Virus record (IMG/VR): IMGVR_UViG_3300006735_000097
Coordinates: 1-34,834 of that record
Strand: one strand, 5' to 3'
Length of the DNA stretch: 34,834 bases
From: a virus
In this document: positions 3,840 through 31,954 of the stretch, in pieces
Position numbering within the stretch: position 1 is the stretch's first letter
Layout of the letters: every line of letters starts with the position of its first letter
Program-made: the position numbers and the translations under genes
Notes under the pieces: model-generated
The model's input: only the letters and a program-made list of their open reading frames with translations
What the model was told of the DNA's origin: nothing
Databases searched by the model: none

Positions 3840-6800
3840 CTAATTTTTTTGAATACTCTGTTCAAAATTTTGGTAATCTCCTAAAGGAACATTTATTATA
3901 TTTTCATAAATATTTTGTATTTTTTCTATTGGGAAAGTGTTACCTGATTCGTAAATACGATTTAAAGTTTCTTTAGATGGAAAATAAGGTAAATATCTTC
4001 CTTGTAAATACATTTTAACATCATCTTTACTTATGTTATTTTCTATTAAAATTTCTGCTACTGTGTTTTCGTCTAAACCTAACTCATAAGCACTTTGAAC
4101 TAAGTTGTTCATGTCTGTCCAATTTTTATATCTTGCCTTTTCTGCTGTAATATATGCGTTTATATAATCTTGTTCTGTAACTACATTTTGATTGTTTGCT
4201 ATTTTACGAAATATCTTTTCGGCATTGTTTACATTTTGGTTATGTTCAGGAATCTTAAAATTAAATGCTTCTTTAACATTTATTTCAGAAACTCTTAGAC
4301 CTCCAAAGTTAGCTAATAATTCTATCTTTGGATCGTATTCTTTACCATAAGGTTCAACAATACCATTAAATGATTTGTATAATTTTTCTAGTTGGTCATA
4401 ACCAGCTGGAACAAAAGCATCAAGCACATGAAGGAACATAGCATTGACTTGATCTCCAACAGGTAGTTCAGGATTATAAACTTGTCTGCCATTAGATTGT
4501 TTGTTTCTTAATATGTCATTAATTTTAGATGCTAAAATAGATTCATCTAAAAAATATCCACCTAATGTTGTTATACTCGCAATACTTGATTGAATAATTA
4601 CTTCATCTAAGGTTTTATTATCTCTTTTACCATTATACCATTCATTAACTGCTGATCTTATTGGTCTGTGTAAGATGTCATACGGAAAAGTATAACTGGT
4701 ATCAACATATTGTATATTTTCAGGATCATCATTTAACACAGTAATATTAGAGTCTTGACTCCATGAAGGAACAAATGCTTTGATTGCCTTTATTGTATCT
4801 TCTGTATAACCCCTTGCTGTGTTGTAGGCTTCATTTGCAACTTTTAAACCAAAACCACCTATGATTACATTACCAGCTAATCTTTTTGCACCTCTTGTTT
4901 TAATAACACTATTTGCTGTGCCTAATTCTTTCATTCCTTGTTTGACAGAAAACACAGTATTTCTTAATATCTCTGCTGGAAAAGATACAAAGTTACCAAT
5001 AGGCAATCTTCTTAAATATTTTATTGCTGGTGGAACTTTATCATAAGTAGGCATAGTGTTAGTAGTAATCTCACTAGCTTGTTTTTTTAATTGTTTTAAT
5101 TTAACAGGATTAATCACCATGTCAGGATAAGCTCTTTTAAGAGTTGCTAGTTCCTTTTCATAAACAATAATCTTAAAAAGATCATCAACACCCATGTAAA
5201 CATTTTGTAAAAAATCTAAGGGTTTTTTGGCATTTTTAAAAACTATATTGTTGGTTATCTTATCAACAAATCCTGACATTGAATTTGCCATCTCAACATC
5301 TTTAAAAATACCTTTAAGTTCATTTATTTTAACACTTGTACGAACAACACCTAAATCTAAATATTCTTGATATTTTAAATTTAATATTTCATCTGACATT
5401 TTACCTATATCATTAGCTACAGTTTTAAATGCAGACCAACCTGTTCTACTAAAAGGATTGACACCATTAAACCAAGCCATCAATATTCCACCTTGTAAGT
5501 TTCTTAATTGTGTTACATGGTTTAGAACTGTTTTAGAATATTGACTGACACCTTTACCAAATAAAAATACTTTGTAAAGAAACAGCAAATTGTGCAACGA
5601 AGTCTCGTCTATAGATTTTAAAAGTTTAGCTATTTCAGGACTTGTGTGATAACCTTTTAGTGGATTGTATTTATTACCTTCAATCTCAGTAGCAAACCTA
5701 TTTGTTGGTTTTTTATAAATATACTTGTTAAAACCATTTTCCTTAATTCTATTTAGGTACTTATCAGTTTCAACCCATTTAGTTAGATCATCAATAGTAT
5801 TGATTAAATTCTCTAAGGGATTTTTTACTTCTCCTAATAGAGCTTTGATCTCAGGAGCTATGTCTTTTTTCTTTAAGAACAAAGATTGTGATTGCTTTGG
5901 TAAAGATTCTACAGTGGAAGCAAAGTTTGTATTATCACCTTTGTCTAATATTTTGTTAATAACGCCATTAACTTCAGCGTTAGTCAGTGAAGGATCTTGT
6001 TTTTGTATGTAATCAAAAGCGTTTTGTCTAATTTGTTTATTAGGATTAAAACCACCTCTGTATAATTTATAACTTTGTCTAACATAAGAACCAACATTTT
6101 TCTCAATAATCTCTTTTATATTTTTTCCTAAACTTTTGCTTTCTATTAATTGTTTACTTAAATCATCAATTAAAGTTCTGGCTTTTGCAACTGGTTGTCT
6201 AAGAGATTCATCTAAAGTATTTATTGATTTCTTGCCTATTAATACTTCTTGTATGTCATCAAATATTTTTGTTTTAAATTCTTTTTTATTTTTAAACTTT
6301 ACATTAAACTTATTAGGATCAAACTTTTTAGCTATCTTATTAACTTGTCTCTCAATTTGTTTTGCAGTTGATACAGCTCTATGATTGTTGCCTCTAATCT
6401 TACCTTGATATAATTCATACAGTTTCTGCATTTGAGGAGTTTTTCTTCCTCTTGTTCTAAAAGGTGCAAGTATAAATCTATCTACGTTTCTAAGAATACT
6501 GCTTTCGCTAAACTGTAATAAGTTTTTAACATCATCAGGCTTTCCAAGTTTTATAGTGTTGTCTTTAAACCTTGACTTCATTACATTGTCATCAAAGTAT
6601 TTAAAGTTTACTCTTTTATCGCTAAGAACCTTATCGACATTTTGTTCTAATTTATTAATAATTGTATCTGCTTTTACAATACCTTCATCAAACTTTTTAT
6701 TTAGTTCATTTTTAATTTTGTTTTTATTAGGACTCTTTTTAAAAGTAGTATCAACGTATTGATCTATAGCTTTCTTTCCTAATGTATCGTATTGTTTGAC

Positions 6801-22345: not shown

Positions 22346-22568
22346 AAACTTAAAGATAGTAAGAGTAGATAAAGAAAATGGATATTACGATCATAAGAAA
22401 CAAAAACATATCCCTTATAAAAAACCAAAAATAGAAACAAAAGTCTTAGAAACTTGTAAAACTTGTTATGATCTTGGTGAGCTTTATTCTATTTTAAAAC
22501 ACCATGCCGAACAAAATAATTATTGTGAAGATTTAAAAATAGAATTTTCATTTAGATTAGACTTTTAA
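22332..22568 (+). CDS. Small early protein with CxxC, hypothetical
   Basis: A 78-aa Lys/Tyr-rich protein with CKTC near residue 42 and a further cysteine near 64, so a partial metal site is possible. It is the last gene of the rightward early cluster. A weak stem-loop follows. Function unknown. Confidence 0.6.
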   Translation: MITYENLKIVRVDKENGYYDHKKQKHIPYKKPKIETKVLETCKTCYDLGELYSILKHHAEQNNYCEDLKIEFSFRLDF

Positions 22569-22589
22569 ATATATAGTTAAAAGCTCTTT

Positions 22590-22616
22590 AGGCAATCTGA
22601 TATTCTTGGGTTGCCT
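22590..22616. terminator. Weak stem-loop between convergent genes
   Basis: AGGCAA (22590-22595) can pair with TTGCCT (22611-22616) around a 15-base loop, between a plus gene ending at 22568 and a minus gene ending at 22616. No clear T-run on either side, so only a weak bidirectional terminator candidate. Confidence 0.35.
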
Positions 22617-22807
22617 TAATGTATCGTCCAATTTTCCCCAATATTTATTTCGTCAATTTCCTTATACTCATCATAATCGTTCTTAAAATTTTCAATAAAT
22701 AGTTTTGATTCATCTTCATTAGCAAAATTACTAAACATCACTACAACATTATTGTTATTGTCTTGATCTGTATGTAAATATAATCTGCAAATTAATTTTT
22801 TATTCAA
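22616..22807 (-). CDS. Small phage protein, hypothetical
   Basis: A 63-aa acidic protein (KKLICRLYLHTDQDNNNNVV, then ENFKNDYDEYKEIDEINIGENW). I place the start at the TTG at 22807, which overlaps the upstream stop by a few bases. The ATG at 22885 would give 89 residues but an 86-bp overlap with the upstream gene. The beta strand followed by an acidic helix resembles other unassigned phage proteins. Function unknown. Confidence 0.55.
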   Translation of the reverse strand: MNKKLICRLYLHTDQDNNNNVVVMFSNFANEDESKLFIENFKNDYDEYKEIDEINIGENWTIH

Positions 22808-23084
22808 TATTTCTTCTGAGAGTTTCAAAGACGATTTCCCATGCTTCGTTTTGAGCAAATTTTTTTTTGGTTTTTTGTAAGTCATTTTTGATTTCTATTA
22901 TAAAGCTAGGTTGTATGTCTATTAATGAGCAAATCCATTTAAAATCTTTACTAAGAAACCATTTTTCAGCTTCTTCGCAAACTATAAAATCAGATTGGTC
23001 ATAATTAGGTGAAGTTCTAAAACTACTATCTAATATTGCTCTTGTAATGATTGCAACATAAAGTCGTAAATATGATTTTTCCAT
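22800..23084 (-). CDS. Conserved small phage protein with DF-W-IC motif, hypothetical
   Basis: A 94-aa protein with an early helix (YLRLYVAIITRAILDSSF), then CEEAEKWFLSKDFKWICSLIDIQPSFI. A W-F-x-S-x-D-F-x-x-(V/I)-C core followed by a short helix is very common in small phage proteins of unknown role. An extended -10 promoter lies 33 bp upstream. It starts a two-gene leftward unit facing away from the boxA leader. Confidence 0.7.
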   Translation of the reverse strand: MEKSYLRLYVAIITRAILDSSFRTSPNYDQSDFIVCEEAEKWFLSKDFKWICSLIDIQPSFIIEIKNDLQKTKKKFAQNEAWEIVFETLRRNIE

Positions 23085-23301
23085 GAATTTTTTACGGACT
23101 TATAGAGCATGGTGTTTTTATATCATTTAAGAGTAGATTTCTAAATTGAACATTGATTGAACAAAATTGTAAAAAATCTAAAAAAGAACTTTTTTAAGAA
23201 AAGTTGTCGCACCTAATTTATTATGGGTTAATAATTATTTTTTTCAAAATTTACAAAAACGATCAAAATTGGCAAAAACGCAAAAAACGAAAAAACCAAT
23301 A
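23085..23301. other. Control region with direct repeats, A-tracts and a low-GC hairpin
   Basis: This gene-free stretch separates divergent promoters. It contains TTGAACA twice (23146-23152, 23157-23163, 11 bp apart), AAAAACG three times (23255-23261, 23274-23280, 23283-23289), and a 7-bp stem AACTTTT/AAAAGTT at 23187-23205. The repeats could be operators or replication iterons; no protein-coding frame is supported. Confidence 0.6.
23117..23125 (-). promoter_or_regulatory. Extended -10 promoter for leftward pair
   Basis: On the minus strand TGATATAAA fits TGnTATAAT with one mismatch and lies about 33 bp before the ATG at 23084. It mirrors the TGATATAAT of the divergent plus promoter. Confidence 0.5.
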
Positions 23302-23310
23302 TGATATAAT
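23302..23310 (+). promoter_or_regulatory. Extended -10 promoter for boxA leader
   Basis: TGATATAAT is a perfect TGnTATAAT extended -10. No good -35 is present, but A-tracts lie upstream. Transcription would start near 23317, giving a leader of about 98 bases before the ATG at 23415. Confidence 0.7.
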
Positions 23311-23344
23311 AGATCATAAATTAAATTTTTAGGAATTTGATTTT

Positions 23345-23365
23345 ATCTAAAGTGACAGTTTAGAT
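23345..23365 (+). promoter_or_regulatory. Leader hairpin before boxA (boxB-like position)
   Basis: ATCTAAA (23345-23351) pairs perfectly with TTTAGAT (23359-23365) around the loop GTGACAG. It ends one base before the boxA. In rRNA operon leaders a hairpin also precedes boxA. The sequence is not that of a known boxB. Confidence 0.65.
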
Positions 23366-23366
23366 T

Positions 23367-23378
23367 TGCTCTTTAACA
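23367..23378 (+). promoter_or_regulatory. rRNA-type boxA antitermination element
   Basis: TGCTCTTTAACA matches the E. coli rrn boxA at all 12 positions as I recall it. It sits about 50 bases into the predicted leader. boxA RNA binds NusB-NusE and helps RNA polymerase resist Rho and read structured templates. Its use here in a phage transcript is inferred from the sequence. Confidence 0.75.
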
Positions 23379-23414
23379 TTGTGAATATGGCTTATTAAGA
23401 AAGGAGAATCACTT

Positions 23415-24020
23415 ATGATGATTCAATCTTATGGTACTAGCGAGATAACAGAACAATTAAGTTTATCTCAAGAATACCAAAAAAAAATGAGAAGCACTTA
23501 TGGAAAAGTTAATAGACAATTTCCTAAAGAACTTCCTTACATAACTAAAGAAGAAGCTTTCAGAGCTTATAAACTTTTAATAAGTAAGTTTGGTAAAAAG
23601 AAAGTTAGAAACTTATCTAATACTAAATGGATTACAAAAAAGTTAAGAGCTGGAAGAACAAGACCTAGAAGATGTTGGATTGCCTTATCAGGCGATTCCA
23701 GTTCTCTTTGGAAGGGTTGGCGAAGATTAGTCCATGATGTTTCACATCGGATTTATGATTTTCAAAATCCAAATGCAAGTAGAAATCACTCTCAAAAACA
23801 AGCTGAGATTGAACTTGTAATAGGTCAATATGTTATGGATCAAGGTTGGTTAGAAGGTAAATTAAAACCTAAAGCTAAACTAATCCTAACTAAACATGAA
23901 AAGGTTGCTAAAAAGATTAGTAATCTTGAGAAACTTCTTAGTAGGTGGGAAACTAAACAAAAAACTGCTCACACCTACATTAAGAAGTATAAAACAAAGC
24001 TAAAACGACTAAGTAAATAA
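23415..24020 (+). CDS. Conserved phage protein with HDVSH motif, possible metallopeptidase-like
   Basis: A 201-aa basic protein. The central segment SLWKGWRRLVHDVSHRIYDFQNPN (about 96-119) has an H-D-x-x-H pair, like the HExxH zinc site but with Asp. It is followed by HSQKQAEIELVIGQYVMDQGWLEGKLKP, where the Glu residues could supply a third ligand. The C-terminal 40 residues are Lys-rich and coiled. I recall related unassigned proteins in marine phages. It is alone on its strand behind the boxA leader with a strong RBS (AAGGAG, eight bases). Peptidase activity is unproven. Confidence 0.75.
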   Translation: MMIQSYGTSEITEQLSLSQEYQKKMRSTYGKVNRQFPKELPYITKEEAFRAYKLLISKFGKKKVRNLSNTKWITKKLRAGRTRPRRCWIALSGDSSSLWKGWRRLVHDVSHRIYDFQNPNASRNHSQKQAEIELVIGQYVMDQGWLEGKLKPKAKLILTKHEKVAKKISNLEKLLSRWETKQKTAHTYIKKYKTKLKRLSK

Positions 24021-24048
24021 ACCAAAGCCATATCACTTTGTTAAAGAT

Positions 24049-24075
24049 GCCCTCAGAAAGCGAATAAATGAGGGC
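24049..24075. terminator. Stem-loop between convergent units
   Basis: GCCCTCA (24049-24055) pairs with TGAGGGC (24069-24075) around a 13-base loop, between genes ending at 24020 (plus) and 24106 (minus). The T-runs are weak in both directions, so termination may be partial, matching the antitermination element upstream. Confidence 0.5.
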
Positions 24076-24105
24076 TATCCAATCTTAAAGAAATCTTTTA
24101 AACAA

Positions 24106-24636
24106 TCAAGTCATTTTAAAGTGATCTCTTAAATAGTCAAGGGCCTCAATTAAGTTCTCAAATTTCTTTCCTCTACCAACAGGAATATCGTTTATTAATA
24201 AATCCCATATCATTGACTGATGTCTTTTTGTTGATTTCATAGCTTCATTAAATTCTTGCTCTGCGTCAAATCCATTTCCGACAAAAAGTTCAATACCACC
24301 TATTACAATGTTGTCTAATTTATCCCAATTAAAAGTTATAGACTTTTGTTTATTAGAATAGACTGCTAATGCTTCTAATTTTTCACCAGCGAGAAATCTT
24401 AAAGTATTTATTTTATAATCTTGTGGGCAAAGAAGCGATTTTGCATAATATTTTTGTAAATTAGAGTTATAGACTCCGTAAATATGTTTTAATCCCATTT
24501 TCATAAGGCGAAAATCGGGTAGTCGATACAATTTATCGTCAATCCTAATGATTTCTTGACCGCCTAGATCACGAACTTCAGTAGAAGAAGGACTAGGTTT
24601 CTGCTTTTTCTGTTTTTTCTTCTTTTTCTTTACCAA
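24106..24636 (-). CDS. Hypothetical protein in replication operon
   Basis: A 176-aa protein with a lysine-run N-terminus (MVKKKKKKQKKQKPSPSS) and a mixed alpha/beta body (LKHIYGVYNSNLQKYYAKSLLCPQDY, then a WDLLINDIPVGRGKKFENLIEALDYL C-terminus). The start is a TTG at 24636 with GAGG six bases upstream, giving a 44-bp overlap with the DUF1376 gene. It probably works with that replication protein, perhaps on DNA, but I recognise no family. Confidence 0.6.
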   Translation of the reverse strand: MVKKKKKKQKKQKPSPSSTEVRDLGGQEIIRIDDKLYRLPDFRLMKMGLKHIYGVYNSNLQKYYAKSLLCPQDYKINTLRFLAGEKLEALAVYSNKQKSITFNWDKLDNIVIGGIELFVGNGFDAEQEFNEAMKSTKRHQSMIWDLLINDIPVGRGKKFENLIEALDYLRDHFKMT

Positions 24637-25423
24637 ACATTACCTCTGCTCTATCAAAATCTTGCTGACTCATATTAAAAATTGGTCTACCTAACTTTTT
24701 AGACATTTCCCACCTTGTTTTAAGAATATGTAATTCATTCTTTTTTTCTTCCTCTTTTCTTGATTGAGGAGTTTGAACTTCGTTATATTTTTCGTTCTCA
24801 ATAAATCTTTCCAAAGCTGTCGAAAATTCACCTTGTTGAGAACAATATTCGGGGTATGTTTCTATTACTAGCTTCTGTTTTGCCTCTGTAAGTGCCTTAA
24901 ACTTGGAAAAAGACTTAGGTTTTGATGACCTTTGCCTCATTTTAACTGATAATCCCTTCCAAAGAGTTTCTAGTGCTAGTATATTAGTATTAGTTTCTTT
25001 AACTTTATCTTCATCTTCATTTTTATCTTTATCTACGATGATTTGTTTTTGATCTGACAAAACTGTATCAAAATTTTCTTTTGCTTTTTTTCTTGCTTGA
25101 CTACGAGTATTGGATAATTCTAATCCTTTAACATACTCTAAATGTTGCCTCTTATTAAAGTATCTGTTGTTTTCAATATAAAATTTAGCATTTAATACTT
25201 TTATTAATGAAGCCATATTTTCTTCATTTTTTTCAGCATCAAGTTCAAATGGTAAAACCATTTTAGCTAGTTCTCTAACATCATTAGGTAAACCCTTGCC
25301 ATGAGTGTTCTGTGAAAAGCATAAAAGGTCTATATAAATTCCTCTTTCAGCTAAAGAAAGAGTGCGAGTGCCTGTAATATAATCATTAGTGAATAAATAC
25401 ATAGCAGGTAGTTTATCAATCAT
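24593..25423 (-). CDS. DUF1376-type replication initiation protein
   Basis: A 276-aa protein. Residues 1-38 (MIDKLPAMYLFTNDYITGT, then LSLAERGIYIDLLCFSQ) match the DUF1376 winged-helix domain found in phage replisome organisers. A charged linker follows, and the C-terminal half (LWKGLSVKMRQRSSKPKSFSKF) is helical, as in proteins that load the host helicase. No polymerase or helicase gene is present, so this protein probably recruits the host replisome to the phage origin. It overlaps the upstream HTH gene by 4 bp. Confidence 0.75.
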   Translation of the reverse strand: MIDKLPAMYLFTNDYITGTRTLSLAERGIYIDLLCFSQNTHGKGLPNDVRELAKMVLPFELDAEKNEENMASLIKVLNAKFYIENNRYFNKRQHLEYVKGLELSNTRSQARKKAKENFDTVLSDQKQIIVDKDKNEDEDKVKETNTNILALETLWKGLSVKMRQRSSKPKSFSKFKALTEAKQKLVIETYPEYCSQQGEFSTALERFIENEKYNEVQTPQSRKEEEKKNELHILKTRWEMSKKLGRPIFNMSQQDFDRAEVMFGKEKEEKTEKAET

Positions 25424-25701
25424 TCTTGTATCTCCTTAATAACTTGAACTGTTCTCTTTTTTGCAGGAATAAAGTAAACATAACAATTCTCTTTAAGGCG
25501 ATATAAGTATTTATTGATAGAGTTAGTACCCTTGAGATTAACGCCAAATGCTATCTCCTTGTATGAGGGCGATCTGTTTTTTTGTGTTTTTTGATACATC
25601 AGAATAAAATTGATTATCTCTTTTTCTTTGGGAGTTGGCATATAAGTCATTGAGGGAAATGACCTCTGACACTGTGGGCATACTTTCAATTTCGTTTCCA
25701 A
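25420..25701 (-). CDS. LexA-type winged-HTH protein with N-terminal CxxC
   Basis: A 93-aa protein. Residues 23-80 (TPKEKEIINFILMYQ, SPSYKEIAFGVNLKG, INKYLYRLKENCYVYFIP) match the DNA-binding domain of LexA; the C-terminal peptidase domain is absent, so it cannot self-cleave. The N-terminus has CPQC. The longest frame begins at TTG 25701 with a weak RBS; an ATG at 25650 is possible. It overlaps the upstream 114-codon frame by up to 164 bp. It may repress the divergent operon at the 25963-25983 palindrome, or help initiate replication. Confidence 0.65.
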   Translation of the reverse strand: METKLKVCPQCQRSFPSMTYMPTPKEKEIINFILMYQKTQKNRSPSYKEIAFGVNLKGTNSINKYLYRLKENCYVYFIPAKKRTVQVIKEIQE

Positions 25702-25882
25702 ATAAACCTAACTCTCTTAATGTACTTTCCCAAATGATACTTTTCATATTGGGAAATACAATATTATTCTCAATACAAATTTTAGTATATTTCTTCCAAA
25801 TATCTAAGGCACACAACAAAAATCTGATCTCTCTATTTTTAAAGTTTTCGCTTTTATAAAGAAAATCTTTACAATTTTCCAT
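25538..25882 (-). CDS. Hypothetical protein overlapping the LexA-type gene
   Basis: A 114-aa frame with a perfect TATAAT at 25905-25910 just upstream, making it the first gene of the leftward operon. Residues 1-65 (NREIRFLLCALDIWKKYTKIC) look like real protein, while the last 50 lie opposite, in another frame, to the LexA-type domain and may be read-through. A +1 shift near 25640-25690 would fuse the two frames into about 155 residues. Function unknown. Confidence 0.5.
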   Translation of the reverse strand: MENCKDFLYKSENFKNREIRFLLCALDIWKKYTKICIENNIVFPNMKSIIWESTLRELGLFGNEIESMPTVSEVISLNDLYANSQRKRDNQFYSDVSKNTKKQIALIQGDSIWR

Positions 25883-25904
25883 GTTTTTAAGATATAAAGA
25901 AATA

Positions 25905-25910
25905 ATTATA
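25905..25910 (-). promoter_or_regulatory. -10 box of leftward replication/regulator operon
   Basis: A perfect TATAAT on the minus strand about 22 bp before the ATG at 25882. No clear -35. It is divergent from the promoter of the recombination operon. Confidence 0.5.
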
Positions 25911-25944
25911 AAAAATCAATTAAAAAATACAGAAAAAAACATTT

Positions 25945-25977
25945 TTGACTTGCATTATCCCTAAAAATACCTAGAGT
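25945..25977 (+). promoter_or_regulatory. Candidate promoter of recombination operon
   Basis: TTGACT at 25945-25950 is a good -35. The best -10 is TAGAGT at 25972-25977 (spacing long) or a poor TACCTA at 17 bases. With TAGAGT the RNA would start at about 25984, almost at the ATG of 25985, giving a leaderless message. The -10 lies inside the palindrome. Confidence 0.4.
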
Positions 25978-25983
25978 ATTTTT
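25963..25983. promoter_or_regulatory. Palindromic operator candidate
   Basis: AAAAATAC (25963-25970) and GTATTTTT (25976-25983) form a perfect inverted repeat around CTAGA, overlapping the probable -10 of the rightward operon and next to a divergent HTH gene. This is the classic place for a repressor site. Confidence 0.6.
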
Positions 25984-25984
25984 T

Positions 25985-26176
25985 ATGGCGAATACGAACC
26001 TTAAAGGTAATGTTTTGGACTTAAATCAACTCCTCCTTACTTCCGATAAAAGAAAAGAACTTACTGATAAGGAAAACAAAGTTAAGCAAGATTGCAGAAA
26101 CAATATTTCTCCGTTAAAAACTAAACTGCAAAAAAAATTAGTATGGTTGCACATACTAAATAATACTGACATTTAA
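25985..26176 (+). CDS. Small ORF inside inverted-repeat element
   Basis: A 63-aa, Lys/Asn-rich hydrophilic frame (MANTNLKGNVLDLNQLLLTSDKRKELTDKENK). It has no Shine-Dalgarno and its first 13 bases are one arm of a 13-bp inverted repeat, so translation would be leaderless or blocked by pairing. It may be a short regulator, or this region may act mainly as RNA. Not recognised. Confidence 0.4.
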   Translation: MANTNLKGNVLDLNQLLLTSDKRKELTDKENKVKQDCRNNISPLKTKLQKKLVWLHILNNTDI

Positions 26177-26211
26177 TTTTTGTTTTTTCATAGTCTGCTC
26201 GTATTCGCCAT
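25985..26211 (+). other. Structured leader: 13-bp inverted repeat around a short ORF
   Basis: ATGGCGAATACGA (25985-25997) is the exact reverse complement of 26199-26211. In RNA these arms would close a loop of about 200 bases and hide the start codon. Inside, TTAGTATG/CATACTAA (26138-26159) forms an 8-bp hairpin and a T-rich tract follows at 26172-26189. The arms are GC-richer than the surroundings. It could be a regulatory RNA, an operator pair or a small insertion. Confidence 0.6.
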
Positions 26212-26227
26212 TTAGAAAGGGAAAGCG

Positions 26228-26596
26228 ATGAATAAAAAAATATCTAAAGTTAGTGCAACTAAAATATACAAAAAACTTAATAAAATAGATGCACATATAG
26301 AATATTTGCAATTAAATATGTTTGAAAAAAAACAAATATTAGTCAAAAATTTTTATAATGCAGATTATTCATTAAATAATGAATTATCGTCAAATCAATT
26401 AGTAAAAAAAATTATGTCATGTCATGCTGACTTTGAAAAAATAAGACAACTAATTTACGATATTATGTTTGATGTACCTGAGATTGATGAAGTATTTATA
26501 AAAGAAAAATCAGATGGTTATGTGGACTTAGAAGAAAGAAAAAAAGAGAAAATAGTTAAAGAAAAATTAGTAAATTTTTTTAGTAAGGAGATATAA
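26228..26596 (+). CDS. Hypothetical helical protein, recombination operon
   Basis: A 122-aa Lys/Asn-rich helical protein, RBS GAAAGGG upstream. Helices at about 8-45 and a C-terminal KEKIVKEKLVNFFSKEI segment. It lies three bases before the nuclease gene. No motif recognised; perhaps an accessory factor of the recombination module. Confidence 0.6.
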   Translation: MNKKISKVSATKIYKKLNKIDAHIEYLQLNMFEKKQILVKNFYNADYSLNNELSSNQLVKKIMSCHADFEKIRQLIYDIMFDVPEIDEVFIKEKSDGYVDLEERKKEKIVKEKLVNFFSKEI

Positions 26597-26599
26597 ATA

Positions 26600-27232
26600 T
26601 TGTCACATATAGATTATAAAGTGGACGGAATTAAAGTTCCTAGAGTCACTAAAATTCTTGGTAGATATAAAAATTCAACAGGACTCATTATTTGGAGTAA
26701 TCAATTAGGACTAGAAGGAAAATCCTATCATGCAGAACTTAATAAAGCTGGTGATATAGGTACTGCATTACACGAATTAGCCGAACTACATATTAAGGGT
26801 GAATATTATGAATTACCTGAAGATCCAATAGTTCAAGAATGTTTTAATAAATTTAAAGATTGGTGGAGTGAGCAAAACTATGAAGTCAATTTTACTGAAA
26901 AAAGTTTTTGTTGTCGTAAATATAAATATGGTGGAACTGCTGATCTTGTTGTCAATGGCGATACAATTATTGATTTTAAGACGAGTAAAGCTGTCTATGA
27001 CGATCACCTAGTACAAATGTCAGCTTACAGGTACATGATTGAGGAGCAAGACGGAATAGAAATTAATAAAGGTATTCTTGCAAGATTTGGAAAAGAAACT
27101 GATGATTTTGAAATAAGAGAGTTTTCTAAATCTGATCTGAATAAAGGTTTTAAATATTTTAAAGTTTTACGAGAGGCATTTGATCTCGACAAGCAAATTT
27201 CAAAATTAACAAGAAAGGCAAAAAAGAAATGA
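26600..27232 (+). CDS. PD-(D/E)XK exonuclease (Cas4/RecB-like)
   Basis: A 210-aa nuclease. The core residues are visible in order: GTALHELAELH (H58), YGGTADLVV (D115), IIDFKTSK (D125, K127) and QMSAYRY (Q139, Y143), the motifs of the RecB/Cas4 nuclease group. The start is TTG at 26600, fixed by AAGGAG upstream. It overlaps the ERF gene by 4 bp. It should resect DNA ends to give single strands for the annealase next door, forming a phage recombination pair like lambda Exo-Beta in role. Confidence 0.88.
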   Translation: MSHIDYKVDGIKVPRVTKILGRYKNSTGLIIWSNQLGLEGKSYHAELNKAGDIGTALHELAELHIKGEYYELPEDPIVQECFNKFKDWWSEQNYEVNFTEKSFCCRKYKYGGTADLVVNGDTIIDFKTSKAVYDDHLVQMSAYRYMIEEQDGIEINKGILARFGKETDDFEIREFSKSDLNKGFKYFKVLREAFDLDKQISKLTRKAKKK

Positions 27233-27660
27233 CTATATATAGAAAGATATTTGATATTACACATGAGGTTAGGTCTGTATCACAGACTAAGCCAAAGGGT
27301 ATTCAATATAAAGTCACTAATTGGAATGATGTTAATGATGTTGTTCGTGAACAATTAGCAAAACATAAATTACTTCTTATTCCTAAAGTTATGGATCACA
27401 CAAAAGAGGGTAATTTAACTACAGTAAAAATGAATTGTGATGTCATAGATGTAGATACCAACGAAAAAATGACTGTTGGTGATTACTATGGGTATGGGGT
27501 TGACAATTCTGATAAGGGAGTGGGTAAAGCCACAACATACGCATACAAGTATTTAATAATGAAGTTATTTTTACTTGAAGTTGGCGAAGCAGAAGATTCA
27601 GAAAACGAAAATCCTGTTGCCACTAAACCAAAACAAGAAAAAAAGGAGCATTCAATATGA
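27229..27660 (+). CDS. erf: ERF-family single-strand annealing protein
   Basis: A 143-aa protein with the ERF core: NWNDVNDVVREQLAKHKLLLIPKV, then GYGVDNSDKGVGKATTYAYKYLIMKLFLLEVGE at about 88-120. That block (G-x-D-x-x-DK-x-x-G-K-A-x-T-x-A-x-KY) is diagnostic of ERF recombinases. The C-terminal tail is charged. It anneals complementary single strands, for recombination and probably genome concatemer formation. Coupled by overlaps to the nuclease before it and the SSB-like gene after it. Confidence 0.88.
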   Translation: MTIYRKIFDITHEVRSVSQTKPKGIQYKVTNWNDVNDVVREQLAKHKLLLIPKVMDHTKEGNLTTVKMNCDVIDVDTNEKMTVGDYYGYGVDNSDKGVGKATTYAYKYLIMKLFLLEVGEAEDSENENPVATKPKQEKKEHSI

Positions 27661-27944: not shown

Positions 27945-28045
27945 TGACCTTGATAGTTTTAACAGCATTAGAGTTATTAGTTTTATTACTAATAGCTTTA
28001 ATGGTGTGGGCAATAGGCGATCAGTTGAGTAAAAAAGATGAGTAG
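27944..28045 (+). CDS. 33-aa membrane microprotein
   Basis: A 33-aa frame beginning with an ATG that overlaps the SSB stop (TAATG) and ending in an 8-bp overlap with the HNH gene. Nearly all of residues 3-25 are hydrophobic (a Leu-rich single membrane helix), then GDQLSKKDE. The tight coupling at both ends supports it. Function unknown. Confidence 0.5.
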   Translation: MTLIVLTALELLVLLLIALMVWAIGDQLSKKDE

Positions 28046-28361
28046 ATTTGATAATTATATAATAGATTATTTAGAAGGGAGAGAATTTTTGAAAAAACAT
28101 ACGAAAGTTTTTATGGATTATTGGGGATATGACATTCCTGAAGATGTGACTTGTATGGTCTGTTATAGTCCTGCTGTTGACCTTCATCATATTCAAGGTA
28201 GGGGAATGGGATCGAGTGATAACAAAGACCACCCAACTAACTTAGCGAGTTTGTGTAGAGCTTGTCACGAAAAAACAGCAAGTAAAAAATTCAATGCTTT
28301 TGTTTACACAAAGTTATTAGAACGCATTATAGATAAGGTGGAAAAAGATGGAAGGATATAG
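28038..28361 (+). CDS. HNH endonuclease
   Basis: A 107-aa protein with a complete HNH layout: zinc cysteines CMVC (39-42) and CRACH (73-77), and the catalytic DLHHIQGRGMG (49-58) with a following Asn. As the fourth enzyme of the recombination module it may resolve branched DNA, as NinG/Rap-type or endonuclease VII-like enzymes do. A homing role is less likely because it is embedded and overlapped by neighbours. Confidence 0.82.
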   Translation: MSRFDNYIIDYLEGREFLKKHTKVFMDYWGYDIPEDVTCMVCYSPAVDLHHIQGRGMGSSDNKDHPTNLASLCRACHEKTASKKFNAFVYTKLLERIIDKVEKDGRI

Positions 28362-31081: not shown

Positions 31082-31272
31082 TCTATTAGTTTCTCCAAAT
31101 ACCATTTTGCTTTTTCTAAATCTTCAAGTCCGTTTTTGTGTTTATGTCTTACTACATACTTCACAATGTTGCCTTGAAAGTAATCGAGTTTAAATTCTGC
31201 TATAAAGTCTGACACTTGTATCTTTGTGCCTATGTAATAAGAGGGGTTGATCTTATCTTTAGACTTTTCCAT
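31066..31272 (-). CDS. DUF3310 nucleotide-kinase-like small protein
   Basis: A 68-aa protein. INPSYYIGTKIQVSDFI, FQGNIVKYVVRHKHKNGLEDLEKAKWYLEKLI is the DUF3310 pattern (GN-(I/V)-x-KY-x-x-R-x-x-x-K-x-G-x-x-D-L-x-KA-x-WYL). Sometimes labelled nucleotide kinase-like, but it lacks a P-loop. The ATG at 31272 has GGAGG upstream; ATG 31284 is an alternative. It overlaps both neighbours. Confidence 0.8.
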   Translation of the reverse strand: MEKSKDKINPSYYIGTKIQVSDFIAEFKLDYFQGNIVKYVVRHKHKNGLEDLEKAKWYLEKLIECTKK

Positions 31273-31954
31273 TCCACCTCCCATTATCTTCTAATGTCAT
31301 GGGAATTAATTGAGGAATACCATTTAATATAACTGCACACCCAAGAGTAGGTCTGCGAATATTAACTCTTGAATAGGCAAAAGCTAATGAATGTTTATCT
31401 ATTAAACAACCAATAGTCATTCCCCACCTGAGTTTCTCAGGCGAATTCCAGTACCCTAATTTGAAATCCGTATGGTAGTGACCTTGTATAAAATTATATC
31501 CAATGGACATAGATGATTTAACAGGATCTTTATTCATGTTATGGCAAAAATAATACTCACCATATTTGTCTTTAATGATTAATCTATCGTGCCACTTCCA
31601 ATTTGTATGATCTACTCCTAAGACATCTGCGTATTCTTTAATAGCTTGTCTTGGAAAGCCATGATGTTTTCTTTTTCTATAAACAAGAGAACCATGATTA
31701 CTATGAAGTAAATCCATTTTAGGAAATAACTTTTCTAGTTTTTTGATTTTGTATTGTGCTAATTCTAATTCTTTAGTGGCACTTGGTAAATCAGGATCAG
31801 AATCATGGAAGGACAAAGCCGAGTAATCAACTTCATCTCCAATGTTTACCACTCTTGAAAATTTATATTTTTTGCTAATAGCTTTTAAGAAAGAATAGCT
31901 ATCAACATGAGAATATGGCTCATGCAAATCCGAAATCGCTAAGATATTCGACAT
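31259..31954 (-). CDS. Calcineurin-like metallophosphoesterase
   Basis: A 231-aa enzyme with the metal-binding blocks in order: DLHEP (9-13), GDEVD (about 39-43), SNHGS (about 85-89, the GNHD position with Ser first), CHN (about 137) and GHYH (about 158-161). Similar phosphoesterases are common in marine podoviruses and may act on nucleotides or DNA ends. The GNHD-to-SNHG change is a variant, but the metal-binding Asn and His are kept. Confidence 0.82.
   Translation of the reverse strand: MSNILAISDLHEPYSHVDSYSFLKAISKKYKFSRVVNIGDEVDYSALSFHDSDPDLPSATKELELAQYKIKKLEKLFPKMDLLHSNHGSLVYRKRKHHGFPRQAIKEYADVLGVDHTNWKWHDRLIIKDKYGEYYFCHNMNKDPVKSSMSIGYNFIQGHYHTDFKLGYWNSPEKLRWGMTIGCLIDKHSLAFAYSRVNIRRPTLGCAVILNGIPQLIPMTLEDNGRWNGKV

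Follow-up and report, generated by a model that had tools for sequence, protein, structure and literature searches.

A pelagiphage-type gene cassette with an rRNA-like boxA leader and a covarying trailer, whose messenger RNA may be handled like a ribosomal RNA precursor

The stretch of DNA analysed here, 34,834 nt with a G+C content of 32% from the IMG/VR virus record IMGVR_UViG_3300006735_000097 (the window), carries on its plus strand at 23163-24107 a cassette of promoter, leader, cargo gene and trailer that is absent from close relatives. The large terminase of the window is 51% identical to that of HTVC010P-type pelagiphages and the portal protein 44% identical to that of HTVC106P, which makes a SAR11-type host likely. 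The cassette promoter is recognized by the extended -10 element TGATATAAT at 23302-23310, kept in nearly all cassettes with the variants TGGTATAAT and CTATATAAT; a promoter scan scored no -35 element for it, and the transcript would start near 23317. Two leader hairpins follow. The hairpin at 23320-23341 (ATTAAATT/AATTTGAT, 8 bp with one G-U) is the general one, present in all related leaders in the form ATTAAATT/AATTTAAT and located directly before boxA in most of them. The hairpin at 23345-23365 (ATCTAAA/TTTAGAT, 7 bp, 23345-23351 with 23359-23365) is an insertion restricted to the window lineage and locus L003, while L004 and L157 possess a different extra leader hairpin. Subsequently, TGCTCTTTAACATTGTGAATATGG, a boxA of the rrn type extended on its downstream side, occupies 23367-23390, followed by the Shine-Dalgarno sequence AAGGAG at 23401-23406, an open reading frame (ORF) for a 201-aa HDVSH protein without family match at 23415-24020 and, 4 nt after the stop codon, the trailer strand AAGCCATATCACTTTGTTAAAGA at 24025-24047. 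A previous sequence-only reading of this DNA had correctly placed the extended -10, the boxA, the ORF and the 7-bp hairpin, even though the latter turns out not to be a general feature of these leaders, and had overlooked the pairing of leader and trailer.

The 12-mer TGCTCTTTAACA at 23367-23378, directly after the hairpin and approximately 50 nt 3' of the extended -10, is by itself only moderately surprising, with 0.53 occurrences per window expected by chance at one mismatch and an exact match being rarer. The 24-mer TGCTCTTTAACATTGTGAATATGG, on the other hand, is found once in the window and not at all in shuffled sequences even at three mismatches, and recurs together with the same promoter and hairpin in independent viral contigs. 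Nowhere was the element, which fits GYTCTTTAANA, lost while the gene was kept: the extended -10, the hairpin and the boxA element are present at all eight IMG/VR loci that encode the 201-aa neighbour, with an altered element in L006 and L007 and an altered -10 extension in L003.

Comparison with ribosomal leaders covered 58 alphaproteobacterial genomes and 95 SAR11 16S leaders. The sequence GCTCTTTGACATTGTGAA occurs in two of the 58 genomes, before 16S in L172, with a hairpin just upstream of the boxA, and before 23S in L171; in both, the rrn stretch GCTCTTTNACATTGTGAA is identical to the phage element at 17 of 18 positions, so that at the level of sequence the phage element matches an rrn boxA beyond its core. 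Equally, the SAR11 16S leaders proceed from the promoter to a hairpin of varying sequence, a TTAGCTATTTAAAA-type boxA and the leader strand of the leader-trailer helix, with a 6-9 bp stem directly before boxA in 89 of 94. The boxA before 23S is situated 6-11 nt after tRNA-Ala in most cases, and such spacer elements differ from the phage variant AGCTATATAAAATTGTGAATAAGT at as few as 4 of 24 positions. The earlier suggestion that the hairpin-then-boxA order and sequence resemble rRNA leaders is thus borne out. An exact copy of CTCTTTRACATTGTRAATATGG was found in none of the genome contigs searched, and the 24-mer within three mismatches in none of 397 SAR11-family genomes and in one of 398 phylum-level genomes, at two sites without rRNA in the 3 kb fetched. 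A side observation concerns two intergenic hairpin-boxA elements (GCTCTTTGACATTGTGAAYATTG) on the minus strand of one genome (G394; L158 and L159, around position 1500), which have no rRNA in the 3 kb fetched and are possible non-rrn boxA leaders.

The leader segment 23370-23393, which contains boxA, pairs with the trailer 24025-24047 on the RNA level as predicted by covariation and the minimum free energy (MFE) fold, with the A at 23384 bulged. This helix is found in 19 of 19 cassettes examined, across five unrelated cargo types, and its trailer strand lies no farther than about 15 nt from the last stop codon in short and long cargo alike. Predicted duplexes range from -23 to -35 kcal/mol, and per cassette 0-6 of 500 shuffles of the downstream sequence performed as well. 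Among 17 distinct sequences, 84.7% of helix cells are paired compared with 34-42% in slid structures, eight helix pairs show changes on both sides, and two-sided cells number 32 versus 15.4 +/- 3.2 in shuffles and at most 11 in slid structures. Column pair 25/38 is realized as U-A or C-G, 27/36 as G-C, U-A, A-U or U-G, and 13/49 as U-A, G-C or C-G. As core wobble pairs on the plus strand amount to nine G-U versus one A-C, a plus-strand RNA is favoured over a DNA-level repeat. The weight of the evidence lies in the fixed position and the recurrence of the helix; the window alone would not prove it. The boxA core GCTNTTTA is invariant in all 17 leaders, while trailer positions facing it are unpaired (column 5 in nine and column 9 in eight of 17) and boxA columns 2-4 face nothing in the helix as drawn. 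Since the core is invariant even where the trailer does not pair, it is under a constraint apart from the helix, which suggests a second binding partner for the boxA strand, as would be expected for NusB-S10.

The ribosome-binding site and the ORF lie inside the helix, just as 16S rRNA lies inside its leader-trailer helix, with long, covarying complementary strands flanking an RNA body as in a precursor rRNA, and the cargo gene ranks first of 46 window genes in 5'-3' pairing. Pairing of the boxA strand with the stretch just behind the gene suggests that the signal does not act beyond the cassette. Rfam covariance models gave chance-level matches only in 22500-26500. The trailer read on the minus strand (24047-24024, behind the 24049-24075 hairpin) was also considered as a leftward boxA and rejected, since group 2 (the lineage whose terminase is HTVC111P-like), L149, L151 and L157 retain the helix but not this core; the wobble pairs fitting the plus strand equally disfavour it. 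In its own right, the HNH endonuclease gene at 28038-28361 shows the third strongest 5'-3' flank pairing of the 46 genes, with 3 of 200 shuffles as good.

The unit behaves as an exchangeable module, a discrete extra gene with its own promoter that relatives can lack. The flanks 22587-23162 and 24108-25884 are only about 104 bp apart in L014 (5027/5131) and nearly adjoining in L015, both without the cassette; L013 contains a small unrelated insert at this site, and in L019 and L027 flanks, leader and trailer are kept around a different cargo. Cassettes are found at other places in G017, near the homologue of 32400 in L007, and in group 2, a distribution over several loci and two pelagiphage lineages. 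BLAST of the leader against cultured phages gave no convincing match. At the site of the window's cassette, L014 (about 5027-5100) and L013 (about 355-425) harbour three tandem palindromic repeats, CAGTATTAAAAAACGATACTG.

Each cassette holds one or two small ORFs, and the five unrelated cargo types, namely the 201-aa HDVSH protein, a 100-aa protein, the 146-aa MFDKK protein, a pair of 79 aa and about 70 aa, and a 104-aa protein, have no Pfam match above the curated cut-off. For the two cargo families tested, every relative found sits in such a cassette; the structure prediction for the HDVSH protein is of low confidence (pLDDT 52). The cargo messages are unusually folded. The 764-nt transcript folds with a z of -8.7 relative to shuffles, its MFE structure containing both leader hairpins and the closing helix, and all 16 cargo ORFs tested have more structure than their synonymous-codon shuffles (mean z -4.5), whereas 19 other genes of the window average a z of -1.3 (p 6e-6 by Mann-Whitney test, with cargo sequences not all independent). 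The consensus fold of seven HDVSH cassettes contains 180 pairs, 15 of which are changed on both sides in one sequence or more, and places the start codon inside a local hairpin. Elsewhere in the window, the mRNAs of an ERF-like annealing gene (27229-27660) and a metallophosphoesterase gene (31259-31954) also exceed synonymous shuffles, with z about -4.

Beyond the trailer, the hairpin at 24049-24075 (GCCCTCA/TGAGGGC, conserved loop GAAAGCGAATAAA) is present as previously described, yet stands outside the cassette, as it is also found in empty-site relatives (L014, L013, L027). Its stem covaries among relatives, and with the loop (T)GAAAGCGAATAAA it recurs at about 5100-5130 in L014 and 660-690 in L013; the stems, GCCCTCA/TGAGGGC, GTGCGTC/GACGCAC and GTGCCACT/AGTGGCAC, differ completely between phages. 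The leftward operon probably has its 3' end at this hairpin, which may serve as a terminator or RNA-binding site. Further downstream, in a 63-aa ORF (25985-26208 in the window; gene 25985-26176), the first 13 nt, ATGGCGAATACGA, which include the start codon, are perfectly complementary to TCGTATTCGCCAT just after the stop. This pairing is kept by compensatory changes in L013, L014, L019, L166 and G010 without any boxA, possibly as a translation-silencing end-to-end helix, and helices that close the ends of a message may be more widespread in these phages.

From the sequence, layout, covariation and cassette behaviour demonstrated in these alignments a mechanism can be proposed. The rrn boxA is necessary and sufficient for formation of the antitermination complex, and in rRNA operons 16S is enclosed by a leader-trailer helix whose formation may be promoted by tethering of boxA (PMC10250234). 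On the phage transcript, host NusB-S10 would bind boxA as the leader emerges, NusA, NusG and possibly SuhB would join, and the complex would ride with RNA polymerase as on rrn operons, with no phage N or Q protein required. Transcription of a short, heavily structured gene, usually opposed to its neighbours, could thereby become fast and Rho-resistant. The 5' strand would be kept close to the exit channel up to the emergence of the trailer, which would pair with the leader and displace NusB-S10 from boxA, so that the modified state would end at the cassette border and the resulting mRNA with tied ends might resist decay or undergo trimming by ribonuclease III (RNase III). That 23163-24107 represents an exchangeable, moron-like cassette with an mRNA laid out like a precursor rRNA, and that it combines recruitment of Nus factors through an rrn-type boxA with self-closure of the mRNA, is together given about an even chance. 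The broader proposal of a modular 'rRNA disguise' in SAR11 phages, with an rrn-type leader and a covarying trailer around interchangeable, unusually folded genes that Nus factors would transcribe as rRNA until the closed mRNA releases them, is put forward more tentatively.

Several observations weigh against this interpretation. The window helix does not stand out among inverted repeats scanned across the genome (score 32, with shuffles reaching 32-36), covariation was assessed on a small set of related sequences (17 distinct, from two lineages and fragmentary), and some non-cassette genes are structured as well (z to -4.3). The SAR11 16S boxA GCTATTTAAAA resembles the main phage form less than other alphaproteobacterial boxAs do, and the SAR11 rrn helix begins just 3' of boxA whereas the phage helix includes it. 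Furthermore, the host call draws on terminase and portal similarity to pelagiphages alone (44-57%), and no comparable cassette was noticed in three cultured pelagiphage genomes.

The main rival is translational repression through boxA. According to PMC5725501, a boxA near the start codon causes repression of suhB and also regulates the gene of a ParE-like toxin. A Nus complex on the phage boxA might accordingly block ribosomes as long as the boxA strand is not taken up by the trailer, which would restrict translation to complete transcripts. The phage boxA ends 22 nt before the Shine-Dalgarno sequence and within 50 nt of a start codon that is itself predicted to be in a local hairpin; the strong promoter and the closing helix, however, suit expression as well as repression, and this explanation is regarded as a serious minority view. 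Rather unlikely is that the helix is a device for mRNA stability or translation timing common in these phages with a boxA match of no consequence: while the second gene at 25985-26176 has a covarying helix from start to 3' flank without boxA and cargo mRNAs are highly structured, the invariance of the boxA core even where unpaired and the match to rrn leaders with a hairpin directly upstream speak for a boxA that matters.

Presence or absence of the cassette, its occurrence at several loci and the swapping of cargo between the same ends would also be expected if the two strands were terminal inverted repeats of a mobile DNA cassette recognized by a recombinase. Such an origin is improbable in view of the plus-strand wobble pairs, a bulged A kept in nearly all cassettes, compensatory changes that distinguish the strands between lineages, repeats that start inside the transcript and not at the cassette borders, and no recombinase noticed in the cassettes. 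The sequence-only reading had, in turn, envisaged that an antiterminated polymerase continues across the opposing genes at 24106-25882 into the recombination operon at 25985. In the window no strong intrinsic terminator follows the cassette; neighbours nevertheless differ between phages, 12 of the 13 contexts inspected continue with a gene of opposite orientation, and in L003, one of these 12, an intrinsic-terminator-like hairpin seen only there directly follows the trailer. Because the cassette sits at several loci, nearly always against opposing genes, such read-through is unsupported and considered most improbable.

If Nus factors do act on these transcripts, pelagiphages, which are among the most abundant viruses, would put the transcription pathway of rRNA to use in making mRNA. 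In addition, the cassette would separate the roles of boxA and the leader-trailer helix, which are hard to study in rRNA itself. An earlier report of such a cassette was not found in the literature searched, with most subscription journals outside its coverage.

Known instances of boxA antitermination are rRNA operons, lambdoid nut sites and a few host genes. With lambda nut/N the cassette shares a boxA in a phage transcript leader, but the boxB hairpin of nut is 3' of boxA whereas the hairpin of the cassette lies 5' of it, the transcript is short with a single cassette, and no N-like protein was noticed among the window proteins scanned, which sets it apart from that system. The put RNA of HK022 acts via RNA structure on polymerase without boxA or trailer strand; common to both is a phage leader RNA that would act without a phage protein. 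Autoregulation of the suhB type and the ParE-like toxin boxA share a boxA in the 5' untranslated region close to the start codon, yet concern host genes, with narrower spacing than in the phage cassette and no trailer helix described in the portion of PMC5725501 considered. Phage morons are likewise extra genes with their own promoter, present or absent between collinear genes and usually against the neighbouring strand; unlike them, the cassette has an rrn-type leader and a closing helix common to unrelated cargo. A close parallel in layout is the bacterial rrn operon (boxB-boxA-boxC, the Nus/SuhB antitermination complex and the RNase III helix), with a hairpin directly before boxA, a boxA with the same downstream extension, and complementary leader and trailer around a structured RNA body, whereas the phage cassette encloses protein-coding genes and draws boxA itself into the helix, with RNase III trimming of the phage helix being conjectural. 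In these phages the hairpin-boxA leader and the leader-trailer closure are combined on transcripts that code for proteins, and no antiterminator of the phage was noticed; what had not been expected is a messenger RNA cassette that has a leader of rrn type, a trailer and a folded body.
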